A stretch of 64,000 bases of DNA. It comes from Mumia quercus (GTDB taxonomy: Bacteria > Actinomycetota > Actinomycetes > Propionibacteriales > Nocardioidaceae). The DNA is taken from positions 528,074 to 592,073 of the forward strand of contig NZ_JANZYO010000001.1 of the NCBI RefSeq assembly GCF_025506335.1, read 5' to 3'. This document shows positions 30,287 through 31,148 of the stretch, piece after piece. The first letter of the stretch is position 1. Each line of letters begins with the position of its first letter. The notes under the pieces were generated by a model. It was not told the DNA's origin. It was given only the letters and a program-made list of their open reading frames with translations, and did not search any database. Made by a program: the position numbers and the translations under genes.

Positions 30287-30928
30287 ATGGACTCGGAGGC
30301 GATCGCGGCTCTGCGCGAGGAGTACGAGGCGGCGGGCCTGAGCGAGGCGCAGGCGGGGCACGACCCCGTCGCGCTGTTCGCGAGGTGGCTCCAGGAGGCG
30401 GTCGCCTCCGGCATCCACGACCCCAACGCGATGGCACTCGCGACGGCCACGCCGAGCGGGCGGCCGTCGGTGAGGATCGTGCTGCTCAAGGGGTTCGACG
30501 CCGACGGAGCCGTCTTCTACACCAATCGGGAGTCGCGCAAGGGCGACGAGCTCGAGCTCAATCCGCACGCCGCCCTCGCGCTCCTGTGGCACCCGCTGCA
30601 ACGGCAGGTCCGCATCGAGGGGCACGTCTCACGGGTGGGCGACGACCTGTCCGACTCGTACTTCGCGTCGCGGCCACGCGGCTCCCAGCTCGGCGCCGTC
30701 GCCTCGAGCCAGTCACGTGTGGTCCCGGACCGCGTCGCGCTCGAGCGCGCCTACGACGCCGCGGCGGCGACGTACCCCGACGTCGTGGCGCGACCTCCGT
30801 GGTGGGGCGGCTACCGGGTCGCGCTCGAGGTCGTCGAGTTCTGGCAGGGACGTACGGGGCGCATGCACGACCGCATCCGCTTCACGCGCGTCGACGACGG
30901 CTGGCAGCGGGAGCGCCTCGCGCCCTGA
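30287..30928 (+). CDS. pdxH: Pyridoxamine 5'-phosphate oxidase
   Basis: 213 residues, full length for PdxH. N-terminal helix MDSEAIAALREEYEAAGLSEAQAGHDPVALFARWLQEAV, FMN-binding DPNAMALATATPSGRPSVRIVLLKGFDADG and FYTNRESRKGDELELNPHAALALLWHPLQRQVRIEG, and the C-terminal PP-WWGGYRV...WQGR...RMHDRIRF motif with the catalytic RxH. The flavoenzyme oxidises pyridoxamine or pyridoxine phosphate to PLP. TAGGGT (30274-30279) is 7 nt before the ATG: a leaderless transcript. It diverges from citrate synthase, an association that is common in actinobacteria. Confidence 0.96.
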   Translation: MDSEAIAALREEYEAAGLSEAQAGHDPVALFARWLQEAVASGIHDPNAMALATATPSGRPSVRIVLLKGFDADGAVFYTNRESRKGDELELNPHAALALLWHPLQRQVRIEGHVSRVGDDLSDSYFASRPRGSQLGAVASSQSRVVPDRVALERAYDAAAATYPDVVARPPWWGGYRVALEVVEFWQGRTGRMHDRIRFTRVDDGWQRERLAP

Positions 30929-30947
30929 GGGTCTGCAGACACAGAAC

Positions 30948-30997
30948 GACCCGCGGGGTTGGCTGCCGAGTGGACAACATCTCGGCCCCCGCGGGTC
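30948..30997 (-). terminator. Two-stem hairpin ending the micro-gene transcript
   Basis: GACCCGCGGGG (30948-30958) pairs perfectly with CCCCGCGGGTC (30987-30997); inside, GCCGAG (30965-30970) pairs with CTCGGC (30981-30986) around a 10-nt loop. On the minus strand it is followed by GTTCTGTGTCTG. It lies 20 nt after pdxH on the other strand, so it may serve both transcripts. Confidence 0.7.
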
Positions 30998-31048
30998 GGG
31001 TGGCTGCTGGGATTCGCCGCACGGTGCGGAAAAGCCCCTGCACCGTGG

Positions 31049-31087
31049 CTAGCGGACAGCCACCTCACATGTCCTGAAGTCATTCAT
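31049..31087 (-). CDS. Micro-ORF, 12 codons, with extended Shine-Dalgarno
   Basis: The minus strand encodes the 12-residue peptide MNDFRTCEVAVR and a TAG stop. It is preceded at 31105-31093 by AAGGAGGTGGTCC, which pairs with 13 nt of the 16S rRNA 3' end (one G-U pair), the longest such match in this window, then GAAGA and the ATG. A promoter (TTGGCT-17 bp-TACGGT) begins 25 nt upstream of the SD and a hairpin terminator follows, so the transcript would be about 165 nt. The region between stop and terminator can fold in several mutually exclusive ways. I do not recognise the peptide. It could be a leader peptide, a translation-coupled regulatory RNA, or a micro-protein. Confidence 0.5.
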   Translation of the reverse strand: MNDFRTCEVAVR

Positions 31088-31119
31088 TCTTCGGACCACC
31101 TCCTTCCCGTGTACGTACG

Positions 31120-31148
31120 ACCGTACGCCTCGCCGCGGTCCGAGCCAA
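31120..31148 (-). promoter_or_regulatory. Promoter of the minus-strand micro-gene
   Basis: Read on the minus strand: TTGGCT (31148-31143), 17-bp spacer, TACGGT (31125-31120). The start would be near 31113, giving an 8-nt leader before the long Shine-Dalgarno at 31105-31093. Confidence 0.55.

Follow-up and report, generated by a model that had tools for sequence, protein, structure and literature searches.

A small RNA of Mumia quercus with complementarity to the entire 16S tail and a conserved micro-ORF: a candidate ribosome-operated switch

We analyzed a stretch of 64,000 nucleotides of the Mumia quercus genome (contig NZ_JANZYO010000001.1, positions 528,074 to 592,073 of the forward strand; hereafter the window) and, within it, a small RNA of about 170 nt on the minus strand, which is flanked by the convergent pdxH gene (end at 30928) and by an upstream, divergent MFS gene. 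A cmscan search placed this RNA in the Rfam family RF02471 (Ms_IGR-5), which Rfam labels "Actinobacteria sRNA" and files as a small RNA (sRNA) gene, that is, as non-coding. The match extended from 30941 to 31112 and over the full model (1-184), with a score of 117 bits (gathering score, 45) and an E-value of 6.5e-27, and the window RNA is a full-length member. The consensus structure printed for RF02471 shows none of the helices P1a, P1b and P2 nor the kissing pair described below, and no open reading frame (ORF) is noted there. The family is thus already known, while the anatomy described here appears to be new. The features are as follows, in window coordinates (SD, Shine-Dalgarno sequence).

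31120-31148, minus strand: promoter, with -35 TTGGCT (31148-31143), a 17-nt spacer and -10 TACGGT (31125-31120)
30941-31113, minus strand: whole small RNA, RF02471 (Ms_IGR-5), cmscan 117 bits; 3' end predicted
About 31113/31112, minus strand: predicted 5' end of the small RNA, placed from the -10
31108-31111, minus strand: P1a, 5' arm, CACG; covariation with 31066-31069
31093-31108, minus strand: SD, complementary to the entire 16S 3' tail over 16 pairs, G-U allowed
31089-31096, minus strand: P1b, 5' arm, with GTCC at 31096-31093 shared with the last bases of the 16S complement
31092-31089, minus strand: extension of the P1b 5' arm, GAAG, in this species
31049-31087, minus strand: 12-codon micro-ORF, ATG...TAG (MNDFRTCEVAVR), start ATG at 31087; open to the stop in 255/255
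31071-31079, minus strand: P1b, 3' arm (switch strand), with CTTC at 31079-31076 and GGAC at 31074-31071
31070-31074, minus strand: kissing strand, GGACA, within the ORF; covariation with the loop of the 3' hairpin
31066-31069, minus strand: P1a, 3' arm, TGTG, inside the ORF; pairs with the 5' end
31061-31066, minus strand: internal SD, GAGGTG, at a distance of 9 nt from the stop codon
31057-31064, minus strand: P2, 5' arm, GGTGGCTG, last ORF codons; pairs with CAGCCACC
31045-31063, minus strand: alternative stop-spanning stem, GTGGC (31063-31059) with GCCAC (31049-31045); excludes P2
31020-31047, minus strand: P3, CACGGTGC (31047-31040) with GCACCGTG (31027-31020), from the computed fold; variable domain
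30999-31006, minus strand: P2, 3' arm, CAGCCACC, from fold and covariation
30947-30998, minus strand: P4, terminator-like 3' hairpin with the kissing loop; z -5.6, no U-run
30972-30976, minus strand: kissing partner, TGTCC, in the apical loop of P4; covaries with GGACA of the ORF

Genome scans showed that the RNA is phylum-wide in Actinomycetota yet far from universal. The Rfam model matched in 34 of 39 whole genomes (Mumia quercus and relatives), in 0 of 14 control genomes and in 70 of 396 genomes drawn across the phylum, 35 of these being above the cut-off. A model of the 5' domain, R1, matched in 148 of the 396 (three of the 148 lacked the SD motif), and a pattern scan of GTDB matched at least 120 stretches, the 80 listed titles of which were mostly Acidimicrobiales/-aceae, Solirubrobacterales/-aceae, Thermoleophilaceae, Nitriliruptoraceae or unplaced Actinomycetota. 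In the Rfam and R1 scans, nearly all RNA-bearing genomes had a single match. About half of the family escapes the Rfam model (70 vs 148 of 396), and the 3' parts vary between clades. Three near-complete genomes from the family or order of Mumia quercus (G024, G028, G038) gave no match even with R1 and are apparent losses. Two bins titled Acidobacteria and Chlamydiae (L113, L116) bear the RNA and are perhaps mislabelled. A search of phages gave no match to the RNA. Two matches came from a pattern scan of viruses and looked by eye (280 bases each) like chance, and within these searches of phages and viruses we rejected a phage element.

Homologues were compared in two sets. The first consisted of 219 loci, namely 99 of the 103 distinct matches of the Rfam model (the four weakest, G195, G215, G300 and G410, were left out) and 120 loci found with a pattern that fixed AGGAGGTGGTCC, GGACC, GAGGTG and GCTAG; it was reduced to 189 unique sequences (93 + 96). 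Because the pattern fixed those letters, the pattern-found loci count for frame and starts and not for the fixed letters themselves. Predictions were written down before the 79 loci of the later set were fetched. Removal of 3 loci without the SD motif (presumed chance matches) and of 10 duplicates left 66 of them, for a total of 255 unique homologues. The later set was found with R1, which had been trained on 74 sequences, and the SD and P1a are therefore partly circular in it; the frame, the promoter and the 3' loop, which are not in R1, are free of this. The E-values of R1 are rough, model-found sets are biased towards their model, and many loci are from metagenome bins.

Base pairing indicates that the SD is as long as possible, comprising the complement of the entire 16S tail. 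The 13-nt match to the 16S 3' end claimed by an initial annotation of this DNA is present (AAGGAGGTGGTCC, 31105-31093, minus strand) and turned out to be longer, 31108-31093 pairing over 16 nt with GGATCACCTCCTTTCT when G-U is allowed. In the Mumia quercus genome, GGATCACCTCCTTTCT occurs once, as the 3' end of a 16S gene, and the 13-nt core AAGGAGGTGRTCC twice, at the RNA and antisense of 16S. With the tail of Mumia quercus as sole reference for all homologues, 16 of 16 tail positions were paired in 78 of the 93 unique Rfam-found sequences, 14 others having a run of 15 and one a run of 12. The figure was 174/189 when the pattern-found homologues, whose search pattern fixed 12 of these letters, were included, and 60/66 in the later set, where the other six had 15. 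Most changes in the SD preserve pairing as G-U. In 253/255 homologues the internal SD matched the 16S tail over 6-8 nt by Watson-Crick pairing; its distance to the stop was constant in 236/255, with AGGTG included in the anchor by which the sequences were positioned.

The 12-codon ORF ending in TAG is likewise present as initially described, and its layout was kept in all 255 homologues, each of which had an in-frame start-type codon (ATG, GTG, TTG, CTG, ATT, ATC, ATA or ACG) at a spacing of 7-14 nt and a frame of 10-18 codons open to the stop. The two other frames held a start-type codon at this spacing in 47 and 67 cases. Among the 189 unique sequences of the first set, the ORF frame was free of stops in 186 (other frames, 34 and 66) and contained a start-type codon 8-12 nt behind GGAGG in 186 (other frames, 16 and 21). 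The variable loop alone was stop-free in 188 of them, compared with 127 expected from shuffled loops. The later set behaved similarly, with an open frame in 66/66 (other frames, 15 and 16) and an in-frame start at a spacing of 8-12 in 58/66 (other frames, 4 and 5), while 6 of the other 8 had TTG at a spacing of 7. The distance from SD to stop fell into all three classes modulo 3 (161/48/46 of the 255), which indicates that insertions and deletions are compensated by a shift of the start codon. Starts were ATG in 71, TTG in 82, CTG in 54, GTG in 14, ATC in 13, ATT in 8, ACG in 7 and ATA in 6, that is, non-AUG in 184/255 and CUG, AUC, AUU, AUA or ACG in 88. The stop codons of the 93 Rfam-found sequences were TAG (73), TGA (15) and TAA (5).

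The peptide did not show such conservation. We found 167 distinct peptides among 187 ORFs, and in 46 close pairs the differences in the loop codons were spread evenly over the three codon positions (25/25/23, no third-position excess), with 52 nonsynonymous vs 11 synonymous codon changes. Apparently, then, translation would be kept by selection while the amino acids are free to change, and we rejected the functional micro-protein envisaged by the initial annotation on the basis of this codon analysis. The stop was one base nearer to GAGGTG in 4/219 loci and in 14/76 later loci; start and stop stayed in frame, so the peptide over the GAGGTG motif was altered. These shifted-stop loci were L089, L094, L095, L098, L262, L272, L275, L278, L291, L295, L300, L303, L307, L319, L320, L322, L328 and L330. 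In several of them the ORF was short (about 10 codons), as was the 3' hairpin, which had no clear kissing loop; these loci perhaps represent a minimal form of the element.

The -35/-10 pair (TTGGCT-17-TACGGT) is present as read initially, and the -10 is, by its recurrence in homologues, a conserved element. TANNNT stood exactly 19-20 nt 5' of the SD anchor in 132/186 testable homologues, where 14.2 would be expected to have it at any position within 12 nt; in the later set TANNNT was found in 22/65 and the looser NANNNT in 54/65. A generic sigma-70 scan found no promoter at the locus. From the position of the -10 relative to the SD anchor, the SD is predicted to start about 4-8 nt from the 5' end of the RNA. 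At the other end, the two-stem terminator of the initial annotation stood in part: the hairpins are present, the U-run is not. Because the 3' hairpin has no U-run and a terminator scan found no terminator there, it is a putative site of termination.

The full RNA folded better than all 200 shuffled versions (z -3.5), and the computed fold of the window RNA contained P1b, P2, P3 and P4 and not P1a. For the 3' hairpin z was -5.6. In isolation, the 5' domain (z 0.2) was no more stable than its shuffles. P1a emerged from covariation: of its four pairs, three had double changes (28, 28 and 17) among 74 sequences. For the 5' hairpin, covariation scored 0.370 compared with 0.119 when shuffled (0/500) and at most 0.087 when slid, and the later set contained the new P1a versions CGAC/GTCG, CCAC/GTGG and CAAC/GTTG. 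P1b had a pairing score of 4-5 in 240/255, with no double changes. As to P2, in which the last ORF codons pair across homologues with a downstream CAGnCACC, the score was 6.94 vs 5.90 shuffled (maximum of 200 shuffles, 6.27; n=82). This figure was obtained with an anchor picked without regard to pairing, because an earlier P2 anchor had been chosen partly by its own pairing. The second half of the ORF thus doubles, as predicted from these pairings, as RNA structure, forming helices with the 5' end and with the downstream strand. The stop-spanning stem, which scored 4.94 vs 4.61 (maximum 4.85) in the first set and 4.78 vs 4.32 (maximum 4.58) in the later one, may be conserved. Of the exclusive folds proposed initially, P2 therefore covaries and the stop-spanning stem has weak support, while P3 (CACGGTGC/GCACCGTG) lies within P2 (GGTGGCTG/CAGCCACC), and these two stems are not in competition. 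A (G)AAUCC-like motif recurred by eye across clades just 5' of the P2 3' arm (window, about 31017-31007).

The strand just 5' of the P1a 3' arm, usually GGAC(C), has two possible partners, GGUCC in P1b and the apical loop of the 3' hairpin. Further evidence for the second, kissing, partner was obtained by comparing its versions, which were GGACA/TGTCC in the window, CGGACT/AGTCCG and CGGACG/CGTCCG in other homologues, and GTGACC/GGTCAC, CGCGACC/GGTCGCG, TGTGACG/CGTCACA and AGACC/GGTCT in the later set. Flanks were tabulated for 152 sequences (74 of the 93 Rfam-found) with GGAC in the ORF strand and GTCC in the loop. The base after GGAC and the base before GTCC (y1) formed a Watson-Crick pair in 54/74 Rfam-found sequences, with all four types (18.8 expected), and the other flank (x1) did so in 41/74 (21.2 expected). 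In the later set x1 paired in 10/14, compared with 5.0 by permutation. A broader score was 5.21 there, compared with 4.28 after shuffling (standard deviation 0.11, maximum of 200 shuffles 4.51; 56 scored, 9/65 having no anchor), and held because the change in this set falls in the core of the pair. We regard the kissing pair as well supported by covariation, and probably real in most clades though not universal. The switching idea of the initial annotation is thus borne out in part; it had missed this pairing, GGACA/TGTCC, the strongest of the alternatives.

Published work contains some traces of expression of the family. Ms_IGR-5 is transcribed in S. lividans, and a transcription unit is listed as an sRNA in S. 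avermitilis (PMC8079986, PMC8780764). Homologues of MS_IGR-5 carry ribosome footprints in M. abscessus and M. smegmatis (PMC4974804), and PMC8388888 served for context only. A search of largely open literature (titles, abstracts and passages) for the RNA, the ORF or a 16S-binding actinobacterial sRNA found no functional study. A link to Streptomyces scr2736 was rejected, as the S. lividans list gives scr2736 as RF02831 and Ms_IGR-5 separately. Our own comparisons support the view that the locus is a self-contained unit of a regulatory type, in which both the SD and the micro-ORF are real, as first proposed. In the SD-ORF-terminator layout, on whose presence in relatives that proposal was made to depend, the SD and the ORF are strongly conserved (255/255 ORFs). 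Ms_IGR-5 may equal scr4389, an identity that the literature search did not confirm.

We propose that the RNA may be a free-standing, ribosome-operated switch or latch, a micro-mRNA filed as non-coding; this is the likeliest of the readings considered here, and about as likely to be right as wrong. The transcript would start about 5 nt 5' of the complement of the whole 16S tail, where a 30S subunit would dock and engage a start codon that is often weak. Docking over 16 nt would consume the GUCC arm of P1b, and the loss of P1b would free GGAC(C) of the ORF for the loop of the 3' hairpin; the two partners covary, while the timing is our assumption. The elongating ribosome would then unwind P1a, the kissing pair and P2 and halt at the conserved stop, where the internal SD, 9 nt upstream, would sit at the anti-SD of the terminating ribosome and could hold it. 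The RNA would accordingly have three states, ribosome-free, docked and translated, and selection would keep translation, the peptide being incidental. The compact form may differ from the opened one in stability or in the strands exposed (the P2 arm with CACC, the GUCC loop), and in this way the RNA could report or act on initiation capacity in trans, or via its stability, this output being a guess.

Several points weigh against such a switch. The sequences are related, so the counts are inflated and do not represent independent events. P1b hardly varies, and covariation therefore neither supports nor refutes it. The predictions written down beforehand fared unevenly: TANNNT as -10 held in just the 22/65 mentioned above, and the y1 test failed in the later set (5/14 vs 5.1), where 52/66 sequences were not usable. 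Within the order of Mumia quercus itself the flanks were weak, y1 pairing in 17/26 sequences (10.5 on average over 2000 permutations, maximum 19) and x1 in 9/26 (6.4 on average, maximum 12). Kissing scores below 5 were found in 26 of the 174 scored members of the first set (13/189 had no anchor) and in 16/56 of the later set. Among these is a group in which the stop is shifted and the 3' hairpin short, but the SD and the ORF are retained, so that the kissing pair is not required for the action of the RNA. The mycobacterial footprints could stem from co-sedimentation of ribonucleoproteins, according to a warning given in PMC4974804 itself.

Other explanations account for part of the same evidence. 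The RNA could be a ribosome decoy that holds 30S subunits or ribosomes and, when abundant, lowers SD-led initiation, the 16-nt SD, the weak start, the structured roadblock and the internal SD at the stop all slowing release. This is possible though doubtful: the RNA is complementary to a functional site of the ribosome, with all 16 tail positions paired in 78/93 Rfam-found and 60/66 later sequences, and the 184/255 non-AUG starts, the internal SD in 253/255 and the footprints in two mycobacteria (PMC4974804) are also as a decoy would have them. However, a decoy needs no frame open to a stop, yet the frame was kept in 255/255, and nearly all genomes listed have one match only. That it is an ordinary base-pairing sRNA, repressing mRNAs through exposed loops or the CACC arm with incidental ribosome binding, would fit its filing in Rfam, the conserved -10 and the strong 3' hairpin; we consider it quite unlikely, as it leaves both the in-frame start-to-stop of all 255 homologues and the match to the whole 16S tail unexplained. 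A dual-function RNA with a peptide of 10-18 residues as product seems very unlikely. The ORF is real, its start and stop are conserved, and "EV" recurs in most peptides listed, but this "EV" is imposed by the GAGGTG motif of the RNA, whose frame changes at the shifted-stop loci, and the diversity of the peptides (167/187 distinct) and the codon changes (52 vs 11, no third-position excess) contradict a conserved product.

That the RNA attenuates or leads a gene downstream of it, in the manner of leader-peptide operons, would be suggested by a micro-ORF with competing folds, and is the explanation we find hardest to credit. A recurrent downstream neighbour was present at 137/219 loci (the 82 others, without one, were left unjudged). 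The nearest one was convergent in 101/137 and on the same strand in 36/137, 24 of these 36 belonging to one cluster, whose tested member is an alpha/beta hydrolase and which is the exception. Tested members of the convergent clusters were PNP oxidase, NAD ligase (ligA), an HNH nuclease and a THAP4-type haem-binding protein, and citrate synthase was a further tested neighbour. In the window, pdxH converges on the RNA and citA starts about 700 bp beyond it. No regulatory codon run was seen by eye in the codons listed. As the recurrent downstream neighbours are clade-specific and mostly convergent, the RNA is not a leader, in agreement with the initial annotation, and we rejected attenuation of a downstream gene. 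A class IV aminotransferase lay upstream in seven loci. Judging from the neighbour families (class IV aminotransferase, THAP4-type), the mycobacterial copies may be located between genes such as Rv0812 and Rv0813c.

The putative switch shares features with several known systems. Leader-peptide attenuators (trp and erm, and the cysteine upstream ORFs of mycobacteria, PMC4633059) combine a short translated ORF with exclusive folds at its end, and a similar combination is predicted for our RNA; unlike them, the RNA has no common downstream gene, carries its own terminator-like hairpin and shows no codon run. In S. aureus, extended SDs accompany non-canonical starts (infC, cvfC1, ccpN), and such starts cut the yield of reporters, to about 10% of AUG in poor medium (PMC13009471). 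The same combination of extended SD with starts such as AUU and AUA occurs in our RNA, although the S. aureus SDs precede real proteins while this ORF encodes nothing conserved. The dual-function sRNAs SgrS and RNAIII are likewise small RNAs with an ORF, but their peptides are conserved. The 6S RNA acts as a decoy for RNA polymerase by similar mimicry of a core machine's ideal substrate; decoy action of the present RNA is hypothetical.

A further reading is that the RNA is a phylum-wide governor of the mode of translation, which would divert 30S subunits from SD-led mRNAs while leaderless translation continues; leaderless mRNAs are common in mycobacteria (PMC4633059). Pairing of the whole anti-SD, the weak start and the internal SD would prolong the hold on the 30S subunit, and translation of a meaningless ORF together with the kissing latch would set the hold time per subunit. 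We think this unlikely.

With these results, a small RNA conserved across a whole phylum that includes antibiotic producers and mycobacteria gains a testable anatomy, made up of an SD of maximal length, non-AUG starts that are conserved, translation apparently selected without a product and a predicted ribosome-sensitive kissing fold. If the proposed mechanism is true, the RNA would represent a kind of RNA switch that has no downstream gene, and would raise the question of how actinobacteria sense free ribosomes and apportion them between SD-led and leaderless mRNAs.
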